Shown here one piece after another: positions 15,171 through 32,149 of a stretch of 64,000 nucleotides of DNA (positions are counted from its first letter, which is position 1; each line of letters begins with the position of its first letter). The notes under the pieces were generated by a model. The model was not told where the DNA came from. It did no database searches and saw nothing but the letters and a program-made list of their open reading frames with translations. A program made the position numbers and the translations under genes. This DNA comes from Clostridia bacterium (GTDB taxonomy: Bacteria > Bacillota > TC1 > UBA5767). The DNA lies in NCBI GenBank assembly GCA_016887505.1, contig CP069393.1, positions 2,131,001 to 2,195,000 on the forward strand, written 5' to 3'.

Positions 15171-15347
15171 GGGGGGAATTTTATTTCGATATATGCTATT
15201 TTGCAAAAATGACTTAGAAGCGGAAAAATTGAATCTGGAAGGTAAAACATAAAATAGCAACTTCGAAGAATTACCAATAGAAATGCTGTAGCTACTAGAA
15301 GAATAGGTGGTTTATTAGATGGAGAATCTATGAACTGAAGTTTTGTC

Positions 15348-15390
15348 AAAGGCTCCTTGGCTTATAATTTAAGCCAAGGAGCCTTTGCTT
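15348..15390 (+). terminator. Bidirectional-type terminator before the sugar operon
   Basis: A perfect 16-bp stem (AAAGGCTCCTTGGCTT with its complement at 15371-15386), loop ATAATTT, followed by TGCTTTT. It isolates the operon from the broken gene upstream. The rest of 15171-15490 holds no gene; I see no clear -35/-10 pair for the operon in the 100 nt after the terminator. Confidence 0.85.
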
Positions 15391-15490
15391 TTATAAATTT
15401 ATAAAAAGGTAGGAGGATTTTTTATTGTAATGTCGAATATTCAATACTAAATAGATACTTACATACTGTAACTAAGTAATGGAGGGAATA

Positions 15491-17344
15491 ATGGCTGGCT
15501 ATACCGGAAAAATAATTAAACTAGATTTATGTACCAACCAGGTGCAGATTGAATACAAGGATGATGAATTTTATAGACTGCATTTTGGTGGACGCAATAT
15601 TATTTGTCATTATCTAATGAATGAATTGCCAGAGTATACTGACCCTTTGGCTCCAGACAATTTGTTGATTTTTGCAACTGGAGTAGTGACCGGAGTACCA
15701 CTGGCTGGTTGTGGTCGGAATAGTGTTGGTGCTAAATCACCAGTTACTGGTGGATATGGAGAAGCAGAAGCAGGAGGATATTTTGGCGCTGAATTGAAGA
15801 AAGCGGGTTATGACGCCCTCGTAATTAAAGGGAAAGCGAAAAAGCCAGTAATTTTGATTATTGAGGATGAAAATATCAGGATTGAGGATGCAGGAAATCT
15901 CTGGGGCCAGAAAGTTGCTGATGTTGATAAATATCTTAAGGAGAGCATTCATAAGACAGTACGAACAGCCATAATAGGACCTGGTGCTGAGAAATTAGTC
16001 CAATATGGATGCATTTTAAACGACATTGTCCATGCTTACGGAAGGAATGGAATTGGGGCAGTTATGGGCTCTAAGAATCTAAAAGCTGTTGCAGTTAAGG
16101 GAACTGGAAAGGTTGAATTGGCGGCTCCTGAAGAAATTAAGAGGATTGCCAAATGGTTCAAGGAAACTAGCGATATAACCATGGGATGGGCAAAGAGTAT
16201 GGGTACACCAGGGTCGCTATTGGTGCAAAACTTAATTGGTGGGCTTCCAACAAGAAACTTTCAAGAAGGATGTTTTGAAGGTGCTGAGAAGATTTCCGGG
16301 GAGAGTATGCATGAAAAGTATCTAGTTGGTAGGGATACATGTTTTGCTTGTTCAGTACGCTGCAAGCAAGTAGTTAAGATTAACAACGAACGGATTAAAG
16401 TCGATTCTGTTTATGGTGGCCCGGAGTATGAGACACTAGCAGCATTCGGATCCATGTGTGGTGTGGATGACTTAGAATACATATGCAAGGCGAATGAGTT
16501 ATGCAATGCTTATTCAATAGATACTATTACAACTGGTAATGTAGTAGCTTTTTTTATGGAACTCTTTGAAAAGAAAAAAATACCTAAGGAATATCTAGAT
16601 GGTGAAGATTACTCTTTCGGCAATGCTGTTGCCATGCTTCGACTTATAGAAATGATTGTAAACCAGAAAGGTGTTGGGCGAGAATTATCAAAAGGAATAG
16701 ATTCTTTTGCTAGATTGATAGGGCTTGCGGATGATGACGCAGTGCTCACTATCAAGGGTCAGCCCCCAGCCTTCCATGATCCCAGAATAAAAAAAGGGCT
16801 GGGCATTGGTTATGTTATGTCTCCGACTGGTGCGGACCATAATCATAATATATTTGATGAACAATATGAAGAGGGTAGTTGGGGAATGGCTCTTATGGAT
16901 TCATTCGGAATTCATAAGGGAATTCCAAAAGAAGTGCTTAATAAGGATAAGGTTAGAATGCTAGTTTTCGGCCACTATCATTTTAGTCTCTTCAATAGTT
17001 TGGTAATGTGCTATTTTATGCCCTACAGCAACGAAACCATTAAGGAAATTGTTAATGCAGCTACTGGCTGGAATACCACAATTTTTGAATTAATGCAGGT
17101 TGGTGAGAGAAGCATCAATTATGCCAGACTATTTAATTTACGCGAGGGTCTGAGTGTTTTAGATGATGAAATGCCAAAACGATTTAAAAAGGTCGCGGTA
17201 GGACCTGAGGGTAAAGATTTAGTTGAAGAACAAGACTATCTTCAAGCGAAGAAAGACTATTACGCCATGATGGGGTGGGACGAAATGGGCGTGCCCACAC
17301 ATGGCAAACTACTGGAATTGCAGTTAGAAGATTTTGCGTGGTAG
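15491..17344 (+). CDS. aor: Aldehyde:ferredoxin oxidoreductase (tungsten type)
   Basis: 617 residues, full length for the AOR family, which oxidises aldehydes to acids with ferredoxin, using a tungsten bis-pterin and one 4Fe-4S cluster. Cluster ligands are in place: Cys284, Cys287 and Cys291 (TCFACSVRC) and the distant Cys507, matching the known C-x2-C-x3-C plus distal Cys pattern. N-terminal GGRN, LAGCGRNSVGAKSP and GYGEAEAGG shape the pterin site. ATG 15491 is used because GGAGGG is 5 nt upstream; an earlier ATG at 15479 overlaps it. It heads a tight 13-gene run with sugar genes, so a sugar-derived aldehyde such as glyceraldehyde is a better guess than general detoxification. GAPOR and FOR belong to the same superfamily and cannot be fully excluded as activity. 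Confidence 0.93.
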   Translation: MAGYTGKIIKLDLCTNQVQIEYKDDEFYRLHFGGRNIICHYLMNELPEYTDPLAPDNLLIFATGVVTGVPLAGCGRNSVGAKSPVTGGYGEAEAGGYFGAELKKAGYDALVIKGKAKKPVILIIEDENIRIEDAGNLWGQKVADVDKYLKESIHKTVRTAIIGPGAEKLVQYGCILNDIVHAYGRNGIGAVMGSKNLKAVAVKGTGKVELAAPEEIKRIAKWFKETSDITMGWAKSMGTPGSLLVQNLIGGLPTRNFQEGCFEGAEKISGESMHEKYLVGRDTCFACSVRCKQVVKINNERIKVDSVYGGPEYETLAAFGSMCGVDDLEYICKANELCNAYSIDTITTGNVVAFFMELFEKKKIPKEYLDGEDYSFGNAVAMLRLIEMIVNQKGVGRELSKGIDSFARLIGLADDDAVLTIKGQPPAFHDPRIKKGLGIGYVMSPTGADHNHNIFDEQYEEGSWGMALMDSFGIHKGIPKEVLNKDKVRMLVFGHYHFSLFNSLVMCYFMPYSNETIKEIVNAATGWNTTIFELMQVGERSINYARLFNLREGLSVLDDEMPKRFKKVAVGPEGKDLVEEQDYLQAKKDYYAMMGWDEMGVPTHGKLLELQLEDFAW

Positions 17345-17369
17345 TTGAATAAGAAAGCACAGGTAAAAT

Positions 17370-19553
17370 ATGTATATTGATAATAATGAATGGATAAGCA
17401 TTGAATTAGCTCAAGATGAAGTTTTTCGTTTTCGCCCAATAATTAAAAATACAACAGGAGTCATAACTGAGTATTTTCCAAGAGAAATATCGAACCGAAA
17501 TGTTAAATGCTTCGACTCATCCAATAAGGAAATAATAATCCAGGCAGATTTTGGGTCAGATAAACACAATTTTATAATTGAAGGTGAAGAAGAAGGTGTA
17601 TCACAAGATGATTGGATAGGAATAATTATCGATGCAGGTGACGAGGACCATTATTTGGGATTCGGAGAAAGCTTTGAATCCTATGACCAAAAAGGTATGG
17701 AAGTGGATCTATGGGTTACGAATGGAGCGTTTGGTAAATATCGCTATAAACCTATTCCTTTTTTCTTAAACCCAAGAGGTTATGGGCTGAGCATCAATTT
17801 AGATAGGAGAAGCCTTTGTAGACTACAGTGTCCTGACCAAAAAAAGAGTGCTACTTTGGTGAGTGCTGATGAAAAATTTGATTTTAGTCTTATTGTACAA
17901 GATAACCTTAAAAAAATACTGAAGATTTATATGGAGAGCGTAGGTAAACCTGAATTACCAGAAGAATGGGTATTCGGTCCATGGAAATCAAGGGACTGGC
18001 AATTGGAAAATCAGGAATCAGTCCACAATGATTTTCATAAACAAAGGAACCTAGGTATTGCTGCTACCGTAAAATTGATTGATGCCTCTTGGCAGTCTAG
18101 TTATATAACTTTTGATTTTCACAAAGAACGCTTTCCATTTCCTGAAAAAATGATGGCAGAAGCTCAAAAAATGGGCTATAAAATCATACTCTGGGTTGCT
18201 CCTTGGATGTCTCTGGAATCAGAAAGTTATGAAGAAATGCATAGGAAGGGATTTTTAGTAAAAGACAAGGATGGAAATCCTTATGTGACAAGATTAGGAA
18301 ACGATCCAGGATTTGTAGGAACATGTTTTGATTTTACAAATCCGAGTTTTATCAAGTACTGGAAAGAAAAAATTTCAAAATTAATGGATATAGGTGTTGC
18401 GGGCTTTAAGACAGATTTTGGTGAGCAGATTGATGAAGATGCCGTATTTTACAATGGAAAGTCTGGGAGAGAAATGCATAATATCTTTCCATACTTATAC
18501 AACAAGGCAACATGGGACGTTGTAAAGGAAAGAAAAGGCTACCTGTTAGGTAGATCAGCATGGAGATTTTCTCAGAGTATACCAGGTGTTTGGGCCGGTG
18601 ATCAGACGAGTGATTTTTGCAGATGGAGTGGGTTGCCGAGTGCTATTACAGCTGGAATCACGGCGGGCCTTTCCGGATTTGGATTTTGGACCAGCGATAT
18701 AGGGGGGTACTTTTCGAGTCCTGACAAGGAAACTTTACTTAGGTGGACACAGTTTGGTACATTTTCTCCTGTTATGCAACTGCACGGCATGGGAGAGCAC
18801 GACCCGTGGAAATATGATGAAGAGACCTTGGTGACTTATCGAAAATATTCGGAATTGCGCATGAGATTATTGCCTTATATCTATGCAAGCGCCAAGGAAG
18901 CGAGCAATGCAGGAATCCCCATGATGCGCGGCTTAGCATTGGAATATCCAAGAGATAGTGTGCTATACGAAAATGTAGCAAATCAATATGAATACTTTTT
19001 CGGTGAAGGGATTCTTTGTTGCCCGATTTGTTTTGGAGGCACGAAAAGGCAAGTATATCTTCCAGAAGGCGACTGGTGTGACTGGTGGAGTGGAGAAATC
19101 TATGAGGGAAATAAAGCATATTGCATCCAGGCTGAATTGACTAAGACACCTTTATTTCTTAAAAAAGGCGCTATTATTGCCACCTATGACCAAGCCATGA
19201 TGACGACTGAGCCGGTAAATGGAAAAAAACCATCGAGACCGGATTTAGTTTTTGAAATTTATCCAGGCGTTTTAGGTGAATTTGAATCGAGTGAAGGGGT
19301 AAAGGTTGCTTACAACTTGGAAAAAGACCGAATAATTGTTTCTCTGAAAGGATTATCTAAGGGACAGAAAATTGGACTCAAATTTAGGGGAGAATATAAA
19401 ATTATCCAGTGTGATACTTGCGAGGTTCTGAAAATAGGAAGTCAGAAATCTTTGCCAGCAATTCTGCTTGGTGGGAACTTTTTGATGCAAAGGATAGATA
19501 TAGAGGCCCAAAAAGATGGAGATTGTACCTTAATATTGGGATATAAGGAGTAA
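17370..19553 (+). CDS. Glycoside hydrolase family 31 (alpha-glycosidase)
   Basis: 727 residues, no signal peptide, so cytoplasmic. A GH31 N-terminal beta domain with GDEDHYLGFGESFES leads to the catalytic barrel. The nucleophile is Asp349 in GFKTDFGEQ, the same phrase as in alpha-xylosidase YicI; the acid/base is probably Asp411 in GVWAGDQTS. The family cleaves alpha-glucosides, alpha-xylosides or related sugars with retention. The Arg/Trp pattern of sulfoquinovosidases is not evident. The start has only a weak ribosome site 25 nt after aor, and the aldolase begins 4 nt after the stop, so translation is probably coupled. It would release the monosaccharide that the rest of the operon uses after ABC import. 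Confidence 0.92.
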   Translation: MYIDNNEWISIELAQDEVFRFRPIIKNTTGVITEYFPREISNRNVKCFDSSNKEIIIQADFGSDKHNFIIEGEEEGVSQDDWIGIIIDAGDEDHYLGFGESFESYDQKGMEVDLWVTNGAFGKYRYKPIPFFLNPRGYGLSINLDRRSLCRLQCPDQKKSATLVSADEKFDFSLIVQDNLKKILKIYMESVGKPELPEEWVFGPWKSRDWQLENQESVHNDFHKQRNLGIAATVKLIDASWQSSYITFDFHKERFPFPEKMMAEAQKMGYKIILWVAPWMSLESESYEEMHRKGFLVKDKDGNPYVTRLGNDPGFVGTCFDFTNPSFIKYWKEKISKLMDIGVAGFKTDFGEQIDEDAVFYNGKSGREMHNIFPYLYNKATWDVVKERKGYLLGRSAWRFSQSIPGVWAGDQTSDFCRWSGLPSAITAGITAGLSGFGFWTSDIGGYFSSPDKETLLRWTQFGTFSPVMQLHGMGEHDPWKYDEETLVTYRKYSELRMRLLPYIYASAKEASNAGIPMMRGLALEYPRDSVLYENVANQYEYFFGEGILCCPICFGGTKRQVYLPEGDWCDWWSGEIYEGNKAYCIQAELTKTPLFLKKGAIIATYDQAMMTTEPVNGKKPSRPDLVFEIYPGVLGEFESSEGVKVAYNLEKDRIIVSLKGLSKGQKIGLKFRGEYKIIQCDTCEVLKIGSQKSLPAILLGGNFLMQRIDIEAQKDGDCTLILGYKE

Positions 19554-19557
19554 AAAA

Positions 19558-20418
19558 ATGAGTTATGTAAATGGAACAGAAATGTTAAGAAAAGCCATGA
19601 ACCAGGGGTATGGTATTGGGGCATTTAATGTTTACAATTTTGAAACAGTGAAAGCCGTTATTCAAGGAGCTTCTGAAGCTAAGGCACCGGTAATGATTCA
19701 GATATGGCCAGGATACTTTGATATGGGTGTCATATCAGCAAAAAGCATTGCTTCCATTGTAAAGGCGGAAGCAGAGGCAGCGGACATACCTGTGTCCCTT
19801 CATCTTGATCATTGCGAGAATCTTGAAGGCATAATGCAGTCCATTGTTGCTGGATTTGGAAGTGTGATGATTGATGCATCAGTTCATAAATACGCTGATA
19901 ATGTGCGTATTAGCAAAAAAATTGTAGAAATTGCCCATTGTGTTGGAGTAGGTGTTGAGGCTGAATTGGGACATGTTTCGTTTGGAGATTGTAGTGCCGA
20001 AGGTGCAGAAGGGCAAAATGTACTAACTCTACCTGAGGAGGCAGCTTCTTTTATTAAAGACACCAATGTAGATTCTCTGGCTATATCTGTAGGGACAGTC
20101 CATGGGATATATAAGGAAGAACCAAAGTTGGACTTTTCAAGAGTGGAAAGAATTAGTGAGATTACAGATATTCCATTGGTATTACATGGTTCATCCTATG
20201 TTGCTGAAGAGGAGCTTAGTAGGATGATTAAATGTGGCATTACTAAGGTGAATTTTGCTACTGAACTATCCATAAATATGGTATCGGGTATTAAAGAAGC
20301 AATAAAATCTAATCCGGACTGTATATTTGCGAACGAAATAACTGGTGTTGGAATGGATAAAGTTAAAACATTGGTTAAACAAAAAATTGCTGCACTGGGA
20401 GCAGAGGGGAAGGGTTGA
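19558..20418 (+). CDS. Class II ketose-phosphate aldolase
   Basis: 286 residues of the zinc-dependent fructose/tagatose-bisphosphate aldolase family (FbaA/GatY/KbaY type). Visible motifs: GIGAFNVYN at the N terminus, LHLDHCEN with catalytic Asp84 and zinc ligand His85, VEAELGHVSFG, VGTVHG with a zinc His, and LHGSS for phosphate binding. It cleaves a ketose phosphate to dihydroxyacetone phosphate and an aldehyde. If the substrate is a ketose 1-phosphate, the aldehyde is non-phosphorylated and would suit the AOR upstream. Position between the glycosidase and a PfkB kinase supports a dedicated catabolic role rather than the main glycolytic one. Confidence 0.92.
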   Translation: MSYVNGTEMLRKAMNQGYGIGAFNVYNFETVKAVIQGASEAKAPVMIQIWPGYFDMGVISAKSIASIVKAEAEAADIPVSLHLDHCENLEGIMQSIVAGFGSVMIDASVHKYADNVRISKKIVEIAHCVGVGVEAELGHVSFGDCSAEGAEGQNVLTLPEEAASFIKDTNVDSLAISVGTVHGIYKEEPKLDFSRVERISEITDIPLVLHGSSYVAEEELSRMIKCGITKVNFATELSINMVSGIKEAIKSNPDCIFANEITGVGMDKVKTLVKQKIAALGAEGKG

Positions 20419-20419
20419 T

Positions 20420-21400
20420 ATGGAACGCAGAATTGACGTTGTAGGTTTAGGTGATCCGTGTATAGATTTCATTATAGGTATACCTTTTTTGCCCAAAGAC
20501 AATGAGAGCCTTGAAATAGAGGATTACAGTGCTCAAGGCGGGGGAAAGGTGGCAACTGCTTTATGTGTTCTAGGAAAGATGGGATACAAAACTGAACTGA
20601 TAGGTTCGACAGGAAAAGATAATTTTGGAGATAGGATTATTAAGGAACTTGAAGAATTTGGCGTAGACATAGAGCATGTAAATCGTTTGAATGCTCCGTC
20701 ATCCTTTTCTGTGGTTTTAACCAATAGGGATACTAAGTCTAGAAGCATTCTTTGGAGACATGGATGTAGTCAAAAATCTGACGGCAAGCTAGCTGACTCG
20801 CTATTAGGCTCAAGCAGATATTTTTACTGCGCTGATTATTCTGAGGTAACTCTTGAATGGTTGAAGGTAGCCAGAAGGCTTGAATGTGAGACTATCTTCG
20901 ACGGAGATTTTTTCGATATGGGATTTGAAAAAATTATTCCCTATATTGATCATTTGATTGTTTCTGAAGAATTTTATCTAGATTACCAAAAAAGCCAGGG
21001 GCAAGTAGCGATTGAAAGCTTTCTCAGACAGCTTTCAGAATTAGGACCTAAGGTCGTAATATTGACGCTAGGAGATAGAGGACTTGTTGCATCTTGCGAT
21101 TCAAATATATTTACCCTACCTGCTTATAGCGTGGAAGTACAGGATACCTTGGGTGCTGGGGATGTTTTTCACGGAGCCTATGTAGCTGCCTTACTAGATG
21201 GAAAGCGAGACAGGGAAGCTTGTGAGTTTGCCTCTGCTTCAGCAGCGGTAAGCACCCTGGGTGTTGGCGGCAGAAGCGCAATAATGGAAAAGGATAAAAT
21301 TCTGGCGTTTATGGAGAGCGGAACAATAGATAATGATTGTTTGAATCAGAATATTGAACGATACAGAAACAAATTCCTTGGAGGAAAAGTTTATGAGTAA
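20420..21400 (+). CDS. PfkB-family carbohydrate kinase
   Basis: 326 residues. An N-terminal GLGDPCIDFIIG strand, the di-Gly AQGGGKVATAL sugar loop, and the C-terminal anion-hole motif DTLGAGDVFHGAY with catalytic Asp248 define the ribokinase/fructokinase fold. It phosphorylates a sugar hydroxyl with ATP; the exact sugar and carbon are not readable. ATG 20420 lies one base after the aldolase stop; the open frame extends further upstream but that part overlaps the aldolase. In this operon it should supply the aldolase's phosphorylated ketose. Confidence 0.92.
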   Translation: MERRIDVVGLGDPCIDFIIGIPFLPKDNESLEIEDYSAQGGGKVATALCVLGKMGYKTELIGSTGKDNFGDRIIKELEEFGVDIEHVNRLNAPSSFSVVLTNRDTKSRSILWRHGCSQKSDGKLADSLLGSSRYFYCADYSEVTLEWLKVARRLECETIFDGDFFDMGFEKIIPYIDHLIVSEEFYLDYQKSQGQVAIESFLRQLSELGPKVVILTLGDRGLVASCDSNIFTLPAYSVEVQDTLGAGDVFHGAYVAALLDGKRDREACEFASASAAVSTLGVGGRSAIMEKDKILAFMESGTIDNDCLNQNIERYRNKFLGGKVYE

Positions 21401-22583
21401 GCGGCTTGGAGTCAGAGATATTGGAGAATACAACAGAAAGAGAATACTTAGAATCCTAAGAGAAATACCCGATATCTCGCGAGCGGAGCTGGTTAAGGAA
21501 ACTAGTTTAGCAGCCCCTAGTATATCCCGAATCGTGGCAGAGTTAATTGATGCTGGCCTGATTCAAGAAGTAGGTATCGGAACTTCTAAAGGAGGCAGAA
21601 AGCCAATATGCCTTCGAATAAATCCGAATGCTAGGTATGTCATTGGAGTTGACATAAAGCCTGATAAAGTTATGTTTGTTCGAAGCAATTTGTATTCAAT
21701 TATATTGGACCGTATCGAAATACCCTTGAAAATTAAAAGCAATCAGTCCGATGCGGTTAAATATATAATTGATGAACTTGGGAATTTTATTGAGAGTACT
21801 GGAATTGATATGTCAAATTTGGTTGGGATAGGTATTGCTGTTCCAGGATTAATTGATTCCCTAAATGGTGTGGTTCGTTATTCATCGCATCTAGATTGGA
21901 AAAATGTTCAACTAAGAAAGTTAATTAATGAAAAAATAGATGTATCTGTTTATTTAGAGAACACAACTACGGCAGCTATGATCGCAGAACGTTGGGAAGG
22001 TCATGGAAAAAATCTAAAGAATTTCATATATCTATATATAGGAGAAGGTATAGGTGCAGCCTACATCTTAAATGATCAGATTTATCGGGGCTCATACTAC
22101 AGTTCTATAGAATTAGGACACACCATTATATGCCCTAAAGGAGACTTGTGTAGTTGTGGTAAATATGGTTGTTGGGAGGCCATGGCTTCTTCAAGAGCTT
22201 TGCGCAAATCCTATCTCCGTTACAAGAAACAACAAAACCAGGAAATTAGAGATTTTTCAGCAGATTTTGATGAACAAGACCAGATGGTACAGGCAATTCT
22301 TCTTGACGAAAAAGACGGAGTGAAAGCGATAAGAGAATGCATGGATTACCTAGTCATTGGCCTAGTTAATGTAGTGAATACATTTATTCCTGAACGAATC
22401 GTTATCAATGGGTGGCCGAGATATCTACGAGCTAACCAGAAGCTTGAAATACTGAATGAAGTAAAAGAGAAAGCGATGAATGGACTGGAAGATATTATTG
22501 ATATTGAATATTCTGAACAAGCAAAAGATGGTCCAATTAAAGGGGCGACAATGACCGCACTGAATGACTTTTTTTCTGTGTGA
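21393..22583 (+). CDS. ROK-family transcriptional repressor
   Basis: 396 residues, NagC/XylR type. An N-terminal winged helix (about 8-70; RAELVKETSLAAPSISRIVAELI) is fused to a ROK domain with GVDIKPDKV, GIGIAVPG, and the zinc site GHTIICPKGDLCSCGKYGCWE in shortened form here as GH plus three Cys in CSCGKYGC. ROK repressors release operator DNA when their sugar binds. The start at 21393 overlaps the kinase stop by 8 nt, so the repressor is made from the operon it presumably controls. No clear operator repeat was found in front of aor. Confidence 0.92.
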   Translation: MSKRLGVRDIGEYNRKRILRILREIPDISRAELVKETSLAAPSISRIVAELIDAGLIQEVGIGTSKGGRKPICLRINPNARYVIGVDIKPDKVMFVRSNLYSIILDRIEIPLKIKSNQSDAVKYIIDELGNFIESTGIDMSNLVGIGIAVPGLIDSLNGVVRYSSHLDWKNVQLRKLINEKIDVSVYLENTTTAAMIAERWEGHGKNLKNFIYLYIGEGIGAAYILNDQIYRGSYYSSIELGHTIICPKGDLCSCGKYGCWEAMASSRALRKSYLRYKKQQNQEIRDFSADFDEQDQMVQAILLDEKDGVKAIRECMDYLVIGLVNVVNTFIPERIVINGWPRYLRANQKLEILNEVKEKAMNGLEDIIDIEYSEQAKDGPIKGATMTALNDFFSV

Positions 22584-22596
22584 GAGGAGAGTAATT

Positions 22597-23706
22597 GTGT
22601 CAAGAATTGAAGAAGTGAACAAAAAAGTTGCTAGAATGAGAAATTTATTGGATGAAAGAGACCTAGAGGCAGTTTGGGTTTCAGAACCTCAGAACATCGC
22701 ATGGTTAACTGAGGGTGGATACAATCGGGTTGACGTAACTTCTCCATGGGGAAGTTTTGGAATTCTTTTAACTAGAACTGATAAATATGTTGTTGCTGCG
22801 AGTAATGAATCATACAGAATAATGAATGAAGAAGTGTTTGATTTGGGCTTTGAATTGGTTAGCTATGACTGGAATGAGGGCTACAATGATTTGATTGTAG
22901 AAAATATGATGGCTGGTAAGAGGGTTGGTAGTGACCGTAATCAGGAGTTTGCAGTAAGTATTGCTCAAGATATGACTATTTTACGTAGTCAATTAAATGC
23001 GAGAGAAAAGAATGATTACCGGAAACTTGCAAATGAAACCGCAGAGATTTTGCACCATGTTTTGGGTGGTGTTAGGAAGGGACAGACTGAGTTACAAATA
23101 GCGGGTCGAATAGCCGAGGGATTCATATCTAAAGGAATTTTGCCACAAGCAATTTTTGTTGCATCTGATGAACGAAGAAAAGAATGCAAACATCCAATTC
23201 CATCTAGTAAAAAGGTGAAAGAAATTGTAAGTGTATCTATATGTGGTATGCGGAATGGCCTTGTCGTTTCCCAGACCAGAGAGATTGCATTAAGAAAACT
23301 AAGTGAGGAAGAAAAGAAGGACAAGATTTCTGTACTAAAAGTTGACTTAGCTTATTTTGAGAATACAAAGCCAGAAAAATTAAGTGGTCAAATTTTGCAA
23401 AGTGGCATAGATGAGTATGCCATACAAGGTTGGCCGGATGAGTGGAAAAAGCATCATCAAGGAGGGAGGACCGGATATTTAGGAAGAGAATATGTGGCTA
23501 CACCGGAATCGGATGACCTTGTCTTGTGTGATCAGGCTTTTGCGTGGAATCCGACAATAAATGGTTTTAAATCAGAAGAGACTTTTTTCTTGGATGGAAA
23601 TAAGCCGGAAATAATTGGTCTTGATGGAGAGTGGCCAATGATTGAAATTGAATATAAGGGTAAAAAATATATTAGACCAGATGTAATGATTATAAAAGGA
23701 GAATAA
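22597..23706 (+). CDS. M24-fold protein lacking most metal ligands
   Basis: 369 residues from GTG 22597 (GAGGAG upstream). The two-domain creatinase/aminopeptidase P layout is clear: an N-terminal creatinase-like domain (about 1-135) and a pita-bread domain. But the residues that bind the metals are changed: the usual D-x10-D strand reads VSVSICGMRNGLVVSQTRE, the EPG loop reads AWNPTING, while a His (KKHHQGGRTGY) and the last Glu (FKSEETFF) remain. It is therefore unlikely to be a standard dinuclear metallopeptidase. Close spacing to both neighbours places it firmly inside the sugar operon, where a peptidase would be out of place. Creatinase shows that this fold can do non-peptidase hydrolysis without metal. 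Function unknown. Confidence 0.82.
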   Translation: MSRIEEVNKKVARMRNLLDERDLEAVWVSEPQNIAWLTEGGYNRVDVTSPWGSFGILLTRTDKYVVAASNESYRIMNEEVFDLGFELVSYDWNEGYNDLIVENMMAGKRVGSDRNQEFAVSIAQDMTILRSQLNAREKNDYRKLANETAEILHHVLGGVRKGQTELQIAGRIAEGFISKGILPQAIFVASDERRKECKHPIPSSKKVKEIVSVSICGMRNGLVVSQTREIALRKLSEEEKKDKISVLKVDLAYFENTKPEKLSGQILQSGIDEYAIQGWPDEWKKHHQGGRTGYLGREYVATPESDDLVLCDQAFAWNPTINGFKSEETFFLDGNKPEIIGLDGEWPMIEIEYKGKKYIRPDVMIIKGE

Positions 23707-23707
23707 T

Positions 23708-25033
23708 ATGAAAATTGGATTTGTAGGATTTGCGGATTTGTATAGTTTCAATTATGAAGCTGGAAAAGATGAATACGCTAAGAGTGTTGAGCTGTTGAAA
23801 AGCATCAAAGATAGTGAGCTAGTATCGATTGAAGAAACAATAACGAACCCACAAATGGCAATTGAAGCGAACCGTATTTTTTTAGATAAAGGGATTGACG
23901 TTTTAATAATCCAGAATTCTACTTTTGGGTCTGGAGAATCATTGGTTAGACTGGTAGAAAACTTACCTGATCCTATAGCCTTATGGGGAATTCCTGAACC
24001 TAAAATTAAGAATCGCTTACAATTTAATTCGCTCTGTGGCGTAAATCTTAATGCTAGTTTACTTAAAAATCTGGGAAGAAAATATAAATATTTTTATGCC
24101 CAACCGGATGAAAAGCTATTACGAGAAATGGAAGATTGGCTCAAAGTAGTGGATACCATCAAATACCTTAGAAATGCAACCATTGGTTTGTTTGGGTATC
24201 ATACACCAGGTTTTTATACATTTGGATTAAATGAATTAAAATTGAAAAAAAAGATAGGTCCAATCATCCAACACGTAGACCTTTCTGAGGTTTATAGCGA
24301 GTCAAAATCTATTGGTAAGGATCAACTGAGTTCTACCCTAAACAAAATAAAGAGTTTGGTGGATAACTCAGAAGAAATGGGCGCAGAAAAAAATGAGTTA
24401 TTCTGCAGAACTAACGTAGCGTTTGAACATATTGTAGAGAAATATAATTTTGATGCTGTGGCCATTAAATGTTGGAGTGAATTTATTGTGGATTATGGGC
24501 AGTGCGTTTGTGGTAGCTTAAGTCGTTTGGTTGATAAAGGCATCATGGCCGGCTGCGAAGGGGATATATTGGGAACGATTACTTCCATGATTCAGGACAA
24601 ATTATCTGATGAGAGACCTTTCATGGCTGATTTAGTGGAAGCAGATTTCGATAGTAATGAACTTGTTCTTTGGCATTGTGGCTCCGCACCTACAAAAACA
24701 GCAGCAAAAAATATAAATTTTGGTAAGACATTTGGTATTAATGGTATGAATTTGGAATTCACAATTAAGCCTGGTGAAGTAACCTTGTTCCGCTTGGGAG
24801 AAATTGAGGGTGAGTATAAGATTCTTTTAGCAAAAGGCGAAGTATTGCCAGACCGTGAAGTTATGGGGGGAACCGGCGGTGTGGTTCATCTAAATGGAGA
24901 TAGCAAAAAATTGGTAGATACTATTATGTATGAAGGATTTGAACATCACTTAGGTTTGGCATATGGCAATATGGTTGATCAAATAACTGAATTTGGTAGA
25001 TTGCTGGAGATTCAAACCATTGTTATTGATTAG
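23708..25033 (+). CDS. L-fucose/arabinose isomerase-like protein
   Basis: 441 residues, cytoplasmic. It follows the fucose isomerase family: N-terminal Rossmann-like domains (DVLIIQNSTFGSGES, IALWGIPEP) and a C-terminal domain with metal-ligand-like positions in KCWSEF (Glu), CEGDILG (Glu/Asp) and LWHCGSAP (His). The family interconverts aldoses and ketoses with manganese; members with altered sugar specificity are known. Starting one base after the M24-like gene, it would turn the released aldose into the ketose needed by the kinase and aldolase. It is shorter than classic FucI (about 590 residues), as are many family members of unassigned substrate. Confidence 0.85.
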   Translation: MKIGFVGFADLYSFNYEAGKDEYAKSVELLKSIKDSELVSIEETITNPQMAIEANRIFLDKGIDVLIIQNSTFGSGESLVRLVENLPDPIALWGIPEPKIKNRLQFNSLCGVNLNASLLKNLGRKYKYFYAQPDEKLLREMEDWLKVVDTIKYLRNATIGLFGYHTPGFYTFGLNELKLKKKIGPIIQHVDLSEVYSESKSIGKDQLSSTLNKIKSLVDNSEEMGAEKNELFCRTNVAFEHIVEKYNFDAVAIKCWSEFIVDYGQCVCGSLSRLVDKGIMAGCEGDILGTITSMIQDKLSDERPFMADLVEADFDSNELVLWHCGSAPTKTAAKNINFGKTFGINGMNLEFTIKPGEVTLFRLGEIEGEYKILLAKGEVLPDREVMGGTGGVVHLNGDSKKLVDTIMYEGFEHHLGLAYGNMVDQITEFGRLLEIQTIVID

Positions 25034-25044
25034 AGGAGAATAAT

Positions 25045-26175
25045 ATGAAAATAGTAAATGCGGAAGCAATTTTTCTACGTCATCCTTTGTCAGGTGAATT
25101 TAGGCCAACATGGGGTACTGGCTTAGTTCAAACGGAGCTTCCTATGACATTAATCAAGATTGAAGTGGAAGACGGAACCCTTGGCTATGGTGCGATACCT
25201 TGCAATGGGAAAGAAGGCGTGATTGGATTTGATACCTTCATTAAGCCTGAACTAGTGGGAACAGATATATTTCAAACCGAAAAGATTTCAAGATTGCTAA
25301 GAAACGCTAGTTTACGTATGACATGGCCTTGGGGTGTTGAAATGGCTGTCTGGGATGCTGTTGGGAAGATTGCTAAATTACCCATTCATAAAATGTGGGG
25401 AGGCGAGAAAAGCAAGATTCCTGTTTATGCGAGTTTAGGAGAAAACAAGCCATTAGATGTTCGCATTAATGAAGTTAAAAAATTGAAGAGCCTGGGATTC
25501 GCTGCGGTGAAGCTAAGGTTTAGGAATAATCAACCTAAAGAAGATTTAAAATGCGTAGAAATGGTGCGAAAAGAACTTGGTGATGATTTCGGTATTATGG
25601 TAGATGCTAATCAGGCAGATGCACTTCCTGGATCGAGTGAATTCTTTGCATGGGACTATAAGCTAGCTTACCAAATTGGCAAGGAACTGGAGCGTTATGA
25701 CGTAATATGGTTGGAGGAACCACTATCCAGATTTGATTATAAAGGACTTCAATTTCTCAATGAAAAATTGAATTTGAAATTGGCCGGTGGTGAGAAAAAT
25801 CAAATGGCGAATGAGTTCAAACAACTGATTGATGATAATTGCTTTGATATCCTGCAAGGTGATTCCAGCTTCTCAGAAGGAATGTTCCAGCTTAGGAAAA
25901 TTGCAGCCTATGCTGAAATAAACTACAAGGAATTTATTCCTCATACTTGGAGCAACTGTATTGGATTAAATGCTAATCTTCAGCTAGCAGCTTCACTTCC
26001 AAATTGCTCATGGTTTGAGTTTCCTTATGAAGAACCCGGATGGAATTTTGAAGTTAGTTCATATCTGCTTAGAAATGGTCATGAAATCAAGGACGGTTTC
26101 ATAACAGTTCCTCAAGGACATGGATTAGGTATGGAATTTGACACGGATCGCATTGAGAAATATACAGTGAAGTAG
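25045..26175 (+). CDS. Enolase-superfamily sugar-acid dehydratase/racemase
   Basis: 376 residues of the mandelate racemase/muconate lactonising type. The N-terminal capping domain is followed by a barrel with Lys156 in VKLRF, metal ligands Asp187 (MVDANQ), Glu224/225 (WLEEPLSR) and Glu250 (GGEKN), and His300 in FIPHTWSN. The Lys/His pair on opposite faces is typical of the mandelate racemase subgroup, which includes acid-sugar dehydratases. It may divert or epimerise an acid form of the sugar. The N-terminal phrase TWGTGLVQTELPM does not point to one substrate. Separated by 11 nt from both neighbours. Confidence 0.88.
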   Translation: MKIVNAEAIFLRHPLSGEFRPTWGTGLVQTELPMTLIKIEVEDGTLGYGAIPCNGKEGVIGFDTFIKPELVGTDIFQTEKISRLLRNASLRMTWPWGVEMAVWDAVGKIAKLPIHKMWGGEKSKIPVYASLGENKPLDVRINEVKKLKSLGFAAVKLRFRNNQPKEDLKCVEMVRKELGDDFGIMVDANQADALPGSSEFFAWDYKLAYQIGKELERYDVIWLEEPLSRFDYKGLQFLNEKLNLKLAGGEKNQMANEFKQLIDDNCFDILQGDSSFSEGMFQLRKIAAYAEINYKEFIPHTWSNCIGLNANLQLAASLPNCSWFEFPYEEPGWNFEVSSYLLRNGHEIKDGFITVPQGHGLGMEFDTDRIEKYTVK

Positions 26176-26186
26176 GTGATGTTCGC

Positions 26187-27266
26187 ATGGCTAAAGTGGT
26201 AATAGATAATGTTGACAAGTATTACGGAGATAACCAGGTTGTTTTTGGTATAAATCTAGAAGTTAAAGATGGAGAGTTCCTTGTGCTAGTTGGACCATCT
26301 GGATGCGGAAAGTCTACAACACTAAGAATGATTGCCGGTTTGGAAGATATTTCTAAAGGAAGTATTTGGATTGGAAATAAGGATGTGACTGGTGAGGCAC
26401 CTAAGGATAGAGATATTGCTATGGTTTTCCAAAACTATGCCTTGTATCCACACAAGAATGTATATGAAAATTTAGCATTTGCACTGAAGTTACAGAAGAA
26501 ACAAAAAAAAGAAATTGAGGAAAGGGTTAATGAAGTGGCTAATATTCTTGGGCTACAAGAATATTTAGACAGAAAACCCAAACAACTTTCTGGAGGTCAG
26601 AGACAGCGGGTTGCTCTGGGAAGAGCAATTGTCAGAAAGCCAAGTGTGTTTCTGATGGATGAACCACTCTCGAATTTGGATGCGAAGCTAAGAGTATCAA
26701 TGAGAGCGGAGATATCAAAACTGCATAAGTGTTTAAAGACAACCACCGTATATGTTACCCATGATCAAACGGAAGCGATGACTCTTGGCGACCGGGTTGT
26801 AGTGATGAAAGATGGTCGAATTCAACAGGTTGGAACGCCATTGGAAATCTATGAAAATCCTGCAAATATGATGGTGGCCGGTTTTATTGGATCACCGGGC
26901 ATGAACTTTGTTATTTGCCGTGTAGTAGAACAAGATAATTGTCTATTTATTCAGAATAATGAACTGAAAGTACCTGTTCCGGTTGCGGTCGCAGAGCGAC
27001 TTAAACCATACGAAAATCAGAAAATAGCAGTAGGTATTAGACCAGAACATTGTTATTTATCTGATGGTAGTGGAGCGTTGGAAACAGAAATACAGGTTGT
27101 AGAAACTATTGGTGGAGATTCCTTCTTGCATACTGAAAAGGGCGATACCAATCTGATTGTCAAATGTAGTAGTAAAGAAGCTGTAGGTATTTCAGAAAAA
27201 TTCAATATTGATATCGATGTAGAGCAGATGAAATTCTTTGATTGTGCCACTGGAAAGAAAATATAG
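26187..27266 (+). CDS. UgpC/MalK-type ABC transporter ATPase
   Basis: 359 residues. Walker A GPSGCGKST, Q loop VFQNYALYPH, signature LSGGQRQR, Walker B VFLMDEPLSNLDAKLR and the switch VTHDQTEAMT are intact; the C-terminal about 115 residues form the OB-fold regulatory domain of the MalK/UgpC group (GIRPEHC). It powers sugar import with the two permeases and lipoprotein downstream. ATG 26187 follows GTAGGTGATG. The next gene begins 65 nt later. Confidence 0.95.
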   Translation: MAKVVIDNVDKYYGDNQVVFGINLEVKDGEFLVLVGPSGCGKSTTLRMIAGLEDISKGSIWIGNKDVTGEAPKDRDIAMVFQNYALYPHKNVYENLAFALKLQKKQKKEIEERVNEVANILGLQEYLDRKPKQLSGGQRQRVALGRAIVRKPSVFLMDEPLSNLDAKLRVSMRAEISKLHKCLKTTTVYVTHDQTEAMTLGDRVVVMKDGRIQQVGTPLEIYENPANMMVAGFIGSPGMNFVICRVVEQDNCLFIQNNELKVPVPVAVAERLKPYENQKIAVGIRPEHCYLSDGSGALETEIQVVETIGGDSFLHTEKGDTNLIVKCSSKEAVGISEKFNIDIDVEQMKFFDCATGKKI

Positions 27267-27331
27267 GGGAGGGGGTCAAATAATTTAGTGGAATCGTTGA
27301 AAAAAAATATTACCAAAGAAAGGTGAAGGAA

Positions 27332-28627
27332 ATGAAAGGAATGAAAAAAGTATTTATTGCTTTGCTACTAATGTCGTTGTTAGCTATGCCTGCCTGTTCT
27401 GCAAAAGAAGAACCAGCGCCGGAATCATCACAAACCGATGCCGACCCAGTAGAATTGGAACTTTGGATTTATGATGAGTTTTATAGTGATGGTGAATTTT
27501 CTCCAATCCAACGTGTCGTTGATGAATTTATGGACGAAAATCCCAATGTACAAGTAAACATTATTCCCACACCATATGGATCAAGTTCCTATCGGGATAA
27601 GTTTATTCAAGCGGCAACAGGCGGCGCTGGACCTGATATCATTCTATCAGATAATATATGGGTACCGCAATTAGCATCGATGGAACTAATCAAACCTATT
27701 GATGATATGTTTGCTGATCGTAGGGATGAATACTTTGATGGCACCATTGATGCTGGATCCTATAAAGGACAGATATATGGTGTTCCCTTCCATGTAGATG
27801 TGATGGTACTGTTCTACAATAAGACTAGATTTGCTGAAGCTGGATTAGATCCAAATGCTCCACCCACGACCTGGGATGAATTTAGGAATGATGCAATTGC
27901 CCTTACTGATGAAGAAAATGGTAAGTATGGTTTCGGAGGATTGTTTGGATGGACTGGAAGTTTCGAGTGGTTGCCGTGGCTATGGCAAAACGGTGGTAGT
28001 GTTTTGAATGAAGACCAGACAAAAGCGGTTTTCAATTCTCAAGAAGGTATTGAGGCCACTGAATTTTTCCTAAATCTTATTCTTAAAGATAAGGTAGTGC
28101 CTGATGCAGCTATGTCTTGGAAATCATGGGATGAACTAACTGCTGGATTTGCTAGCGGTACCATTGGTATGTGTGAAGGCATGAATGTCATGCTCAGTAA
28201 ACTTGATAAATTAGATGAAACTTTTGAATGGGGTGTAGCTGTACTTCCAAAACAAAAAGAAGCAGCTGCTACCTTGGGCGGTGGTCACTTTGTTATTAGT
28301 AATGAGTGTGAAAATCCTGAATTGGCCTATAAATTGATTGAGAAGATCACATCCGCTGATAATTTAGACATGATGGATGCTTATAGTCGACTTTCTGCTC
28401 GAAAGGATTCTGGCAATCAGAAAATGGCACAAGAAGATGAGCGTATAGCAGTCTTTGTTCAGGCTTTGGAAGATGCTAGACCTAGACCGACTATTCCAGA
28501 ATGGAGCACCATTGATTATGATACTATTCAACCAGCATTTGCCAAAATCCTTTGGGAAGGCGGCGACATCGAAGAGGAAATGAATAAGGCAGCAGAGATT
28601 GTAAATTCAGAAGTATTGTCTGATTAG
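27332..28627 (+). CDS. Extracellular sugar-binding lipoprotein (ABC transporter)
   Basis: 431 residues. A lipoprotein signal (hydrophobic FIALLLMSLLAMP then lipobox Cys) anchors a group 1 solute-binding protein (SBP_bac_1 fold; GAGPDIILSDNIWVPQLA, DEFRNDAIALT). It captures the sugar or oligosaccharide outside the cell for the two permeases that follow. ATG 27332 is chosen since AAAGGTGA lies 7 nt upstream; GTG 27323 and ATG 27341 are alternatives. Many aromatic residues in the binding region (GWTGSFEWLPWLW) suit stacking on sugar rings. A stem-loop after the stop probably raises its expression over the permeases. Confidence 0.93.
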   Translation: MKGMKKVFIALLLMSLLAMPACSAKEEPAPESSQTDADPVELELWIYDEFYSDGEFSPIQRVVDEFMDENPNVQVNIIPTPYGSSSYRDKFIQAATGGAGPDIILSDNIWVPQLASMELIKPIDDMFADRRDEYFDGTIDAGSYKGQIYGVPFHVDVMVLFYNKTRFAEAGLDPNAPPTTWDEFRNDAIALTDEENGKYGFGGLFGWTGSFEWLPWLWQNGGSVLNEDQTKAVFNSQEGIEATEFFLNLILKDKVVPDAAMSWKSWDELTAGFASGTIGMCEGMNVMLSKLDKLDETFEWGVAVLPKQKEAAATLGGGHFVISNECENPELAYKLIEKITSADNLDMMDAYSRLSARKDSGNQKMAQEDERIAVFVQALEDARPRPTIPEWSTIDYDTIQPAFAKILWEGGDIEEEMNKAAEIVNSEVLSD

Positions 28628-28635
28628 AATGTTTG

Positions 28636-28663
28636 AGGAAGAGGTGGTTAATCGCCTCTTCCT
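28636..28663 (+). other. Intercistronic stem-loop after the binding-protein gene
   Basis: An 11-bp stem (AGGAAGAGGTG with CGCCTCTTCCT, loop GTTAAT) lies between the binding protein and the first permease. There is no T run after it, so it more likely protects the upstream message from 3' decay or causes partial termination, the usual way to get excess binding protein. Confidence 0.65.
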
Positions 28664-28690
28664 TAATTCCAACGAAAGAAGGTTCTTACT

Positions 28691-29602
28691 GTGATAAATG
28701 ACATGAATCCACTGCCTAGGTGGAGAAAAAACGAGAAAAGAATTGGATTTTTATTAGTAATGCCAGCATTGCTAATTCTAGGCTTTGTTATTATTTATCC
28801 TTTAGGATTGAATATTTTTATGAGTTTTCAAAAAATCGTTCTAACTAAACCACAGCTGGGAACCCCGTTTATTGGTATAGAAAATTATCAGAAGGTGCTT
28901 AGTGATGAAATCTTTTGGCGTTCAGCAGGTCATACTGTTCTTTGGGTAATGTGTTCGGTATCTATACAGATAATATTGGGGCTTGGTGCAGCTTTGCTAT
29001 TGAATGCGCCAATTAAATTTAGAGGGGTACTTAGAGGAATTATTCTTATACCTTGGGTTACACCTGGTGTGGTAGCAGCATTAAATTGGCGTTGGATGTT
29101 AGATGGCCAGATGGGAATAATCAATAAGATTCTTGTGAATGCCCAAATTATTGAAAAACCTATTGCCTGGCTGGGCCAATATTCTACTGCTTTTCCAGCA
29201 GTTATTGTAGCACATGCTTGGAAGAATTTTCCATTTTCTATGCTGATGTTGTTGGCAGCCTTGCAGACTATTCCAAAATACCTTTATGAAGCAGCAGAAA
29301 TAGATGGGGCGAACCAAATACATAAATTTTTGCACATTACTATGCCTGAAATATGGCCCACGTTGTCTTTGACCGTGCTCTTAACTAGTATTTGGACATT
29401 CAATAATTTTGATACTATTTGGTTAATGACTGAGGGTGGACCATCACATGCAAGCGAAATTCTTACTACCATGGTGTATAAAACGGCTTTCCAAGCCTTT
29501 AACCTTGGTGAAGCTTCTTCATTGGCTGTATTAATGTTCATAATGTTGCTTGGCTTAGTAATTGTATACGGACGATTAATGGTGAAGAGGGAAGTAAAAT
29601 GA
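28691..29602 (+). CDS. Sugar ABC transporter permease (MalF type)
   Basis: 303 residues with six predicted membrane helices, first at about 20-42. The EAA loop that contacts the ATPase is EAAEIDGANQIHKFLHITMP. Start GTG 28691 has AAGAAGG about 8 nt upstream; an ATG four codons in is an alternative. It overlaps the next permease by 4 nt (ATGA). Together with that gene it forms the membrane channel for the imported sugar. Confidence 0.94.
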   Translation: MINDMNPLPRWRKNEKRIGFLLVMPALLILGFVIIYPLGLNIFMSFQKIVLTKPQLGTPFIGIENYQKVLSDEIFWRSAGHTVLWVMCSVSIQIILGLGAALLLNAPIKFRGVLRGIILIPWVTPGVVAALNWRWMLDGQMGIINKILVNAQIIEKPIAWLGQYSTAFPAVIVAHAWKNFPFSMLMLLAALQTIPKYLYEAAEIDGANQIHKFLHITMPEIWPTLSLTVLLTSIWTFNNFDTIWLMTEGGPSHASEILTTMVYKTAFQAFNLGEASSLAVLMFIMLLGLVIVYGRLMVKREVK

Positions 29603-30429
29603 ACCGGAAAAAAATGTGGATTTTTATAATATATGTGCTGATAGCGCTGATAGTAATCATTGCTGGATTTCCGTTTTTATGGATGGTTTCTACTTCAGTA
29701 AAACCAGACAATGAGATTTTAATGGGTGTCCCTAAATTTTTACCAAACCATTTCTATTGGAGATCCTATGTGGATGTTATGGTGAGTGGAAAATTCCTGA
29801 CATACTTTGGAAACAGTATGAAAGTTGCAGGTATAACTACGGCTATAACTATGGCTATTTCTATTTGTGCTGGATTAGCTTTTGCAAGATTTGATTTTAT
29901 CGGACGCAGAAAATTCCAAATATTTGTGCTCTTTGCCCAACTATTCCCACTAGTGCTTCTAATTACGCCGTATTTTAGAATAATGGGTGCTTTACATATA
30001 CTAGATAGTCATTTGGCACTGTACATGGCTTATACTTCATTTGTATTGCCATTTAGCATTTGGATGCTTACCAATTACTTCAAAAGTATTCCTGACGACA
30101 TGGAACAGGCTGCTATGATTGATGGTTGCACAAAGATTCAAGCTTTTGTTTGTGTAACCTTACCTTTAGCAGCACCTGGCATTGTAGCTACTACCATCAA
30201 TGCTTTTACTTTAGCATGGAATGAATTTCTTTTCGCACAAACATTCATAAATTCGCCAGCTCTCAGAACACTCCCTATTGGTTTGAGGTCATTTATGGGG
30301 CAATATGACACCCAATGGAATTTGTTGATGGCTGGTTCGGTAATTAGTGCTATTCCAGTAATCGTTCTATTTATGTTTCTTCAAAAATATCTAATAGCAG
30401 GACTATCTAACGGCGGAGTGAAAGGGTAA
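29599..30429 (+). CDS. Sugar ABC transporter permease (MalG type)
   Basis: 276 residues, six membrane helices, EAA loop EQAAMIDGCTKIQAFVCVTL. The N-terminal FPFLWMVSTSVKP is typical of MalG-like subunits. The start overlaps the upstream permease (ATGA), and its own stop shares one base with the glycerate kinase start (TAATG), indicating translational coupling through the end of the operon. Confidence 0.95.
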   Translation: MNRKKMWIFIIYVLIALIVIIAGFPFLWMVSTSVKPDNEILMGVPKFLPNHFYWRSYVDVMVSGKFLTYFGNSMKVAGITTAITMAISICAGLAFARFDFIGRRKFQIFVLFAQLFPLVLLITPYFRIMGALHILDSHLALYMAYTSFVLPFSIWMLTNYFKSIPDDMEQAAMIDGCTKIQAFVCVTLPLAAPGIVATTINAFTLAWNEFLFAQTFINSPALRTLPIGLRSFMGQYDTQWNLLMAGSVISAIPVIVLFMFLQKYLIAGLSNGGVKG

Positions 30430-31562
30430 TGAAAATTGTAGTAGCCCCAGATTCATATAAGGAATGTCTATCTTCGATGTTGGTAGCAGATGCTATTGAA
30501 GCAGGAATACGAAAAGTGAAGCCTGATACTGAGGTTTTAAAAGTTCCATTGGGTGATGGGGGAGAAGGTACGATTGCAGCTATCACCAGATCCTGTGCAG
30601 GGGAAATAATATGGATGAATTCACTAGACCCGTTAGGTAGACCGATAAAATGCCGAGTGGGTATGTTAAATTCTGGCAGGACCTTGCTTGTGGAAATGGC
30701 CAGTGCTTCTGGGCTTGACCTTCTTGCTGAACAGGAAAAAAATCCTATGCGTACGAGTACCTATGGGACGGGACTTCTGATTAAACAATGCTTAAACACA
30801 GAAGCGGAAGAAATATTGGTCACAGTAGGGGGAACTGCTACCTGTGATGCTGGAATTGGCTTGGGTGCGGCGCTAGGTGCAGTTTACCGTGATCGTGAAG
30901 GACATGAGTTGCAGCCAGTTGGAGAAAATTTGAAGCGAATTTGTGAAATAGATAGTTCAAATTTGGATAAGAGAATATTGGGAAAAAAATTTAGGGTACT
31001 CTGCGATGTGAATAATCCATTATATGGCCCTGAGGGAGCTTCGTATGTTTATTCTTCTCAAAAAGGAGCGACAAAGGAAGAAGTTATAGAATTAGACCAA
31101 GGCCTGAGAAATATGTCCTTGCTGGCTAAGGATACATTTGGGATTGAATTGGGAAAAATACCAGGAATGGGTGCTGGCGGCGGTGCTGCAGCGGGATTAA
31201 AACTCTTCTTAGGCGCGAAAATAGTGCCTGGGATAGAAGTGGTTTTAGAAATGCTCAAGGTAGAAGATAAAATTCTTACAGCGGATTTAGTTATTTCTGG
31301 AGAAGGGAGAACGGATGCCCAAAGTAAAAATGGAAAAGTAATTAGTGGACTTGGACGTCTATGCCAAAAACATGGCGTGCCATTACTAGTGTTATCTGGA
31401 AGCTTGGGTGAAATTTCCCAAGATTTATATGATATAGGCATTAGTGCGATTTTTGCGATTCAAGAGAAACCAATGACTTATAAAGAATCAATTCGAAATG
31501 CTTCAGAACTGATAACAGGGACTACAGAGAATTGTATAAGACTTTTTCAGTCAAAAAAATAG
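30429..31562 (+). CDS. Glycerate 2-kinase (GlxK/GarK family)
   Basis: 377 residues. Family motifs: VVAPDSYKECLSS at the N terminus, LGDGGEGT, TVGGTATCDAGIG, GMGAGGGAAAGL and DLVISGEGRTD. The family phosphorylates glycerate to 2-phosphoglycerate (E. coli GarK/GlxK) and so feeds lower glycolysis. As last gene of an operon that starts with an aldehyde oxidoreductase, it suggests that the aldehyde oxidised is glyceraldehyde and that the product re-enters metabolism as phosphoglycerate. No terminator is obvious after the stop. Confidence 0.94.
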   Translation: MKIVVAPDSYKECLSSMLVADAIEAGIRKVKPDTEVLKVPLGDGGEGTIAAITRSCAGEIIWMNSLDPLGRPIKCRVGMLNSGRTLLVEMASASGLDLLAEQEKNPMRTSTYGTGLLIKQCLNTEAEEILVTVGGTATCDAGIGLGAALGAVYRDREGHELQPVGENLKRICEIDSSNLDKRILGKKFRVLCDVNNPLYGPEGASYVYSSQKGATKEEVIELDQGLRNMSLLAKDTFGIELGKIPGMGAGGGAAAGLKLFLGAKIVPGIEVVLEMLKVEDKILTADLVISGEGRTDAQSKNGKVISGLGRLCQKHGVPLLVLSGSLGEISQDLYDIGISAIFAIQEKPMTYKESIRNASELITGTTENCIRLFQSKK

Positions 31563-31713: not shown

Positions 31714-32052
31714 TATGGATACGATTGAAAGAAACTTGGCCTATTTCAAGGAAAAACATAAAGATATCTATGAGGCCTATGTTGCCTATGGGAAGACCTT
31801 ACATGAACAAGGTGGCCCCCTTACGAGAAGACTAGGTGGCTGGTCAAGATTGCCACTTCGACGAGTTGTCAAAATCCATATGCGCTGAAAACGCATATTA
31901 GAAAAGCATTGAAGAGTGGTTGCACTCGTGAAGAAGTTGAACATGCGATTCTCCTTACTGCACCGACAGCTGGCTTTCCTGTGATGATGGAAGGATTGCT
32001 GGTTTTACAAGAAGCGTTAGGGGATACGGATGAAATCGTGATGACAGAATAG
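31714..32052 (+). pseudogene. Frameshifted carboxymuconolactone-decarboxylase/AhpD-like gene
   Basis: ATG 31714 (GGAGGGAAG upstream) opens MDTIERNLAYFKEKHKDIYE, a standard start for small CMD/AhpD-fold proteins, but the frame closes at TGA near 31886. One base appears to be missing near 31822: with it, translation would read GPLxEKTRWLVKIATSTSCQNP and continue through LKTHIRKALKSGCTREEVEHA to the TAG at 32052, about 113 residues in all. The usual CxxC redox pair of AhpD is reduced to one Cys here. Either a genuine recent pseudogene or a one-base sequence error. Confidence 0.75.
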
Positions 32053-32149
32053 AAGATGTGAGATGACAAGGAGGCTTTTAGGGGTCTTCTTGTTTTATTT
32101 GACAGGATACTATACTATACTAATAGAAATTAACCTTTAGGAGAAAAAG

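Follow-up and report, generated by a model that had tools for sequence, protein, structure and literature searches.

The window analysed here, a stretch of 64,000 nucleotides from contig CP069393.1 of a Clostridia bacterium, contains at positions 15491-31562 a run of 13 open reading frames (ORFs), all of them on the forward strand and open without internal stops, headed by a gene for an aldehyde:ferredoxin oxidoreductase (AOR) family enzyme. According to Pfam and NCBIfam assignments, the genes code in this order for the AOR, a GH31 glycosidase, a class II aldolase, a PfkB-family sugar kinase, a ROK-family regulator with a winged-helix N-terminus (21393-22583), a protein of the M24 (prolidase/creatinase) fold, a sugar isomerase, an enolase-superfamily protein, the parts of an ATP-binding cassette (ABC) sugar transporter and a glycerate kinase. 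Family profiles identify the transporter genes as a MalK-type ATPase (26187-27266), a sugar-binding lipoprotein (27323-28627) and two permeases (28691-29602 and 29599-30429). A GGAGGG ribosome-binding site precedes the AOR start at 15491, and the intergenic gaps are, in order, 25, 4, 1, -8, -20, 1, 11, 11, 56, 63, -4 and -1 nt. An initial annotation of the window had described a tight 13-gene run from AOR to glycerate kinase, which we confirm with gaps of -20 to +63 nt, and its family assignments hold in Pfam and NCBIfam.

Upstream of the run, a terminator-like hairpin with an 18-bp stem, a 5-nt loop and a T tail (CTTTTATAAA, 15347-15387, forward strand) separates AOR from the preceding genes. 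A scan for terminators revealed no convincing terminator in the short gaps between the 13 genes, and the next convincing terminator-like site after the glycerate kinase gene is at 32065. Since the promoter and terminator scans as a whole gave no more sites than were counted in shuffles, the hairpin is to be taken as suggestive only. The layout, with 25 nt between AOR and GH31 and the hairpin upstream of AOR, opposes a transcription of aor separate from the sugar genes, which the initial annotation had named as evidence against its pathway. Just upstream of AOR lies a weak candidate operator half-site with the motif YTAAGTAA (CTAAGTAA, 15472-15479, forward strand). The motif occurs three times in the window, both strands counted, and is also present just before AOR in the two homologous operons described below (at 507 in L035, at 1141 and 1218 in L056), such that in each of the three operons a half-site precedes AOR by no more than about 100 nt. 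As the motif was picked by eye after seeing the sequences, we regard it as a lead only.

Homologous operons were searched for in two ways. In a phylum-wide sample of 399 genomes, one isomerase ortholog, that of locus L035, had 45% identity and all others had at most 35%. A second search, a scan with an alignment of the enolase-family protein, recovered the contig of this ortholog, DUOV01000221 (loci L035 and L055), and a third operon on JAIPEX010000035 (L056) from a Halanaerobiales metagenome-assembled genome (MAG); both operon genomes are Bacillota MAGs. The gene order in L035 is AOR, GH31, aldolase, PfkB, ROK, M24, isomerase, enolase family, sugar-binding protein, permease, permease; L056 shows the same order without M24, and its contig ends inside the transporter genes. 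This conserved order is more than chance. AOR, the presence of which in homologous operons had been put up for checking, is found in both and is the first gene in all three operons; with regard to the co-occurrence of the 13 families, named there as a further check, the core from AOR to the permeases recurs in the two other genomes and the glycerate kinase does not. An ABC ATPase gene does not lie between the enolase-family and sugar-binding protein genes in the L035 and L056 genomes. L035 has a partial ABC gene divergently upstream of the operon and, downstream of the permeases, genes for a Gfo/Idh oxidoreductase, a sugar isomerase-like TIM barrel and a PIG-L deacetylase. Within the family and the class to which the window belongs, no other copy of the isomerase was found, and a scan of close-relative contigs with the isomerase gave no matches. 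A phylum search centred on the L056 genome yielded for the most part genomes already found before, and no further ortholog.

The AOR of the window (15491-17344) carries both AFOR Pfam domains (AFOR_N and AFOR_C, 233 and 375 bits) and conserves the motif GPEYE and a histidine aligned with His448 of PfAOR; we take the PfAOR-aligned glutamate and histidine to be the catalytic residues. The three operon AORs form a clade of their own with support of 100/100, in which the L035 and L056 enzymes are 56% and 54% identical to that of the window, and the enzyme is closer in sequence to PfAOR than to the solved FOR and WOR5. In none of the three operons is a gene for a small subunit found next to AOR, which, as a single large subunit, would fit the Class I type of tungsten oxidoreductase (WOR) in the scheme of PMC13328260. 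In L035, a ThiS/MoaD-like small protein ending in GG is encoded directly after AOR (2374-2649), with no counterpart beside the AOR of the window. Judged by its family, the operon AOR probably reduces ferredoxin, and the aldehyde that it oxidises is probably the one freed by the aldolase. We consider it improbable that the enzyme is instead a general aldehyde-detoxifying AOR which is co-transcribed with the sugar genes by chance: several characterised Class I WORs do detoxify aldehydes (PMC13328260), but one of the genome's three other AORs is already of the type of the Pyrococcus furiosus enzyme PfAOR (57%). These three share 27-35% identity with the operon AOR, which belongs to a separate clade and comes first in three operons.

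The aldolase (19558-20418) belongs to PF01116. In fructose-bisphosphate aldolases of this class, the C6-phosphate is bound by the arginine of a DPR motif and the serine of a QxSxGAxKY loop. Both motifs are absent from the aldolases of all three operons, and a second PF01116 aldolase encoded elsewhere in each of the three genomes (controls L120-L122) keeps DPRK and QxSxGAxKY; by its C6-phosphate residues, the window enzyme is not a classical class II fructose-bisphosphate aldolase. Its best solved relatives are, nearly tied, AgaY and 8q57, the second of which also lacks DPR and is, we presume, the class II sulfofructose-1-phosphate aldolase SqiA. This identity agrees with a 2023 paper, going by its mention in PMC12890257. 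Because the C6-phosphate motif is lost in the operon copies and kept in the same-genome controls, the substrate is probably one without a second phosphate, i.e. a ketose 1-phosphate. A strictly bisphosphate-specific aldolase, which the initial annotation had recognised as contrary to its scheme, is opposed by the same loss of DPR, in three of three operons, relative to canonical fructose-bisphosphate aldolases. The L056 genome has a third PF01116 aldolase (G399:C138:14360-15190, L124) which likewise lacks DPR. The kinase (20420-21400) is of family PF00294, as is the sulfofructose kinase YihV, and not of PF00365, the family of SqiK; its best solved relative is YihV (7ag6) with 95 bits, followed by ribokinase with 93 bits.

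The isomerase (23708-25033) has no phmmer match among solved structures. Its predicted model (pLDDT 91.4) superposes on L-arabinose isomerase (4r1p) and L-fucose isomerase (1fui) with TM scores of 0.86 and 0.80, respectively, in agreement with the earlier call of a fucose-isomerase-like protein, and the conserved metal-ligand residues E284, D286, H323 and H414 are invariant across 20 sequences. The sole strong NCBIfam match is the sulfoquinovose isomerase SftI, with 290 bits against a cut-off of 700, compared to 460-536 bits for isomerases from clusters with sulfoglycolytic features, and the HPNRK motif of this sulfoquinovose-type clade is missing from the three operon isomerases; we regard the enzyme as a distant relative of SftI/SqvD. 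The preceding gene (22564-23706) codes for a protein with the prolidase fold in which, read by eye, the second metal-ligand aspartate is absent and the first varies, so the five ligands of M24 metallopeptidases (Asp, Asp, His, Glu, Glu) are incomplete and the metal site is apparently degenerate. M24-fold proteins with such a site accompany SftI-like isomerases at at least 11 loci. The protein may act together with the isomerase, perhaps by assisting ring opening or mutarotation.

That isomerase, kinase and aldolase resemble enzymes of sulfoglycolysis was overlooked in the initial annotation, and the likeness to SftI, YihV and SqiA prompted us to consider a sulfoquinovose operon, which we rejected on the signatures of GH31 and isomerase. 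The GH31 enzyme (17370-19553) keeps the KTDFGE nucleophile region and the acid aspartate and has the alpha-xylosidase YicI as its closest relative. The residues RxxW and HEGNRP are the signature of sulfoquinovosidases. Both are present in YihQ and in L051, and L044 keeps HEGNRP; both are absent from the three operon GH31 enzymes, which share a WKSRDW loop instead. Since neither the GH31 enzyme nor the isomerase carries the sulfosugar signatures, the sugar is probably not sulfonated. AOR genes do occur near more distant isomerases, namely in three of 19 neighbourhoods of which 15-20 kb were examined: in L041 (1469-3352) and L045 (12284-14086), AOR stands beside an SftI-like isomerase, an M24-like protein, a PF00365 kinase and a class II aldolase, the gene set of sulfo-EMP2 (EMP, Embden-Meyerhof-Parnas), and in L046 (9345-16097), it is found with an SftI-like isomerase, a two-part transketolase and a homolog of the phosphosulfolactate synthase ComA. 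From this gene context, the AORs of L041, L045 and L046 are possible candidates for the oxidation of sulfolactaldehyde, but a comparable proposal for Desulfovibrio sp. DF1 has been put to the test without any activity being seen (PMC6278857). Such AOR-bearing, sulfo-EMP2-like clusters (L041, L045), together with the sulfoglycolytic nearest relatives of isomerase, kinase and aldolase, are what could be said for a sulfosugar operon in the window, with sulfoquinovose or sulfofucose as substrate and AOR acting on sulfolactaldehyde. We hold this to be most improbable, given a GH31 enzyme without the sulfoquinovosidase signatures seen in L051, an isomerase that lacks HPNRK and scores well below the sulfoquinovose-type clade, and the absence of genes for a mutarotase, a sulfonate exporter or a canonical sulfolactaldehyde dehydrogenase among the 13 genes.

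The enolase-superfamily protein (25045-26175) belongs to the mandelate racemase subgroup, has the KxR and PHTW motifs and is 61% and 56% identical to its counterparts in the other two operons. Its nearest relatives are galactonate, talarate and arabinonate dehydratases. Its reaction is probably the dehydration or epimerisation of an acid, which may be the product of AOR. This gene and the M24-fold gene were left out of the earlier scheme, which is incomplete in this respect. The conservation of the enolase-family gene and its relationships would fit an oxidative branch in which AOR forms an aldonate from a free aldose (or from some other aldehyde) and the enolase-family protein dehydrates this to a 2-keto-3-deoxy acid, the second sugar of the glycoside being left to isomerase, kinase and aldolase; an enolase-family dehydratase (PF13378/PF02746) acts in this manner in the breakdown of sulfofucose (PMC12421959). 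The operon has, however, neither a lactonase nor a 2-keto-3-deoxy-acid aldolase, and 2-keto-3-deoxy-6-phosphogluconate (KDPG) aldolase, the one aldolase family of this kind that was searched, was not found in any of the three operon genomes, so a classical Entner-Doudoroff (ED) branch is unlikely. Nor are AOR enzymes known to act well on free aldoses. We thus judge the oxidative branch to be decidedly unlikely.

The last gene (30429-31562) codes for a glycerate kinase (PF02595). In the version of the initial annotation, a plain hexose or ketohexose is broken down to glyceraldehyde, which AOR oxidises to glycerate for phosphorylation to 2-phosphoglycerate. The gene overlaps that of the last permease by 1 nt, a second copy exists in the window genome, and the chemistry of this version closes without an exporter. 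Inside the operon, the gene is nevertheless found only in the window: on the L035 contig, a glycerate kinase gene lies 6 kb beyond the operon beside a 2-hydroxyacid dehydrogenase gene and, as it is placed after metG and tatD, is not counted as an operon member, and neither PF02595 nor PF05161, the glycerate kinase families, was found in the L056 genome, a MAG in which the operon contig ends early. Moreover, an ordinary hexose would be more simply phosphorylated at C6, and the enolase-family gene is left unexplained. We therefore consider this version unlikely: the core up to AOR is borne out by the comparison of operons, the glycerate end is not. Downstream of the glycerate kinase gene, positions 31716-32052 resemble by eye a broken carboxymuconolactone-decarboxylase-like gene, and genes for a 2Fe-2S protein, an FAD oxidoreductase and a 4Fe-4S protein follow one another at 34346-36248, by eye like a proline/hydroxyproline dehydrogenase set.

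Taken as a whole, we infer that the operon serves to import an alpha-glycoside and degrade it along an EMP-like, ferredoxin-coupled ketose 1-phosphate route, a reading for which the chances appear to us about even. The ABC transporter would import the glycoside, from which GH31 would free an aldose; the isomerase would convert this to a ketose, and the PfkB kinase would phosphorylate it at C1. The aldolase would then split the ketose 1-phosphate to dihydroxyacetone phosphate (DHAP) and an unphosphorylated aldehyde, which the dedicated AOR would oxidise to an acid with reduction of ferredoxin. As phosphorylation at C1 makes most sense when C6 is unavailable, the scheme suggests a sugar with a C6 that is not open to phosphorylation, i.e. 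a deoxy sugar, a pentose or an otherwise modified sugar. The aldehyde and its acid would be lactaldehyde and lactate from a 6-deoxy sugar, glycolaldehyde and glycolate from a pentose, and glyceraldehyde and glycerate from a hexose. The hexose case alone explains the glycerate kinase of the window, for which the acid may be the substrate should glyceraldehyde be formed. Several points weigh against this ferredoxin-coupled route. The sequence evidence names no single sugar, the lead of YihV over ribokinase as relative of the kinase is only 2 bits, the enolase-family protein, one of the most strongly conserved in the operon, cannot be placed in the scheme with certainty, and the operons found number only three, two of which come from MAGs. 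In addition, another AOR, from a sulfonate cluster of Desulfovibrio sp. DF1, was inactive on sulfolactaldehyde, lactaldehyde and acetaldehyde (PMC6278857). More tentatively, and with doubts prevailing, we propose that the operon AORs are a tungsten AOR clade specialised for the oxidation in an EMP-like ketose 1-phosphate pathway, the sugar being one that cannot be phosphorylated at C6. The sulfo-EMP2-like clusters of anaerobes would then be a sister arrangement with AOR acting on sulfolactaldehyde, and the two would make up a branch of sugar degradation in Bacillota that is coupled to ferredoxin.

If the proposed route is correct, reduced ferredoxin would be gained directly from an aldehyde, and an anaerobe could use it for the formation of H2 or for energy conservation. 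According to a classification from 2026, a physiological role is known for only five of 92 tungsten-oxidoreductase clades, and no role in a sugar operon is mentioned in its text (PMC13328260); the conserved operon of AOR, isomerase, kinase and aldolase offers a testable substrate for one more. Among other uses of WOR-family enzymes, GAPOR and CbGOR catalyse a ferredoxin-linked step of sugar breakdown (PMC13328260). They replace GAPDH and have glyceraldehyde 3-phosphate as substrate, whereas the substrate of the operon AOR is likely unphosphorylated. The archaeal non-phosphorylative ED pathway shares the oxidation of an aldehyde to an acid, which glycerate kinase may then take up, and differs from the operon, which has an isomerase, a sugar kinase and a DHAP-forming aldolase and in which glycerate kinase is not conserved; in Sulfolobus, glyceraldehyde is oxidised by xanthine-oxidase-family enzymes (PMC4726530) rather than AOR. 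The sulfofucolytic ED pathway, with its dehydratase SfcF, also combines an enolase-superfamily acid-sugar dehydratase with ABC sugar uptake genes (PMC12421959), but the operon lacks the dehydrogenase, lactonase and KDSGal aldolase. The closest known kind is EMP-type sulfoglycolysis, of which the operon would probably be a variant for another sugar. It resembles sulfo-EMP2 and hybrid sulfo-EMP (pathways: PMC9594981) in its isomerase of the SftI/SqvD family, its YihV-like PfkB kinase and its SqiA-like PF01116 aldolase, as well as in the presumed phosphorylation at C1 and cleavage to DHAP and an aldehyde. Of the hallmarks of sulfo-EMP2, it has the non-bisphosphate PF01116 aldolase; its GH31 is by signature not a sulfoquinovosidase, its isomerase lacks HPNRK and falls outside SftI/SqvD proper, its kinase is not of PF00365, and it has no SqvB/YihR mutarotase or sulfonate exporter. 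AOR and the enolase-family gene stand in the operon where those pathways have SlaB or YihU. Enzymes akin to those of sulfoglycolysis are thereby connected with a sugar which probably carries no sulfonate.

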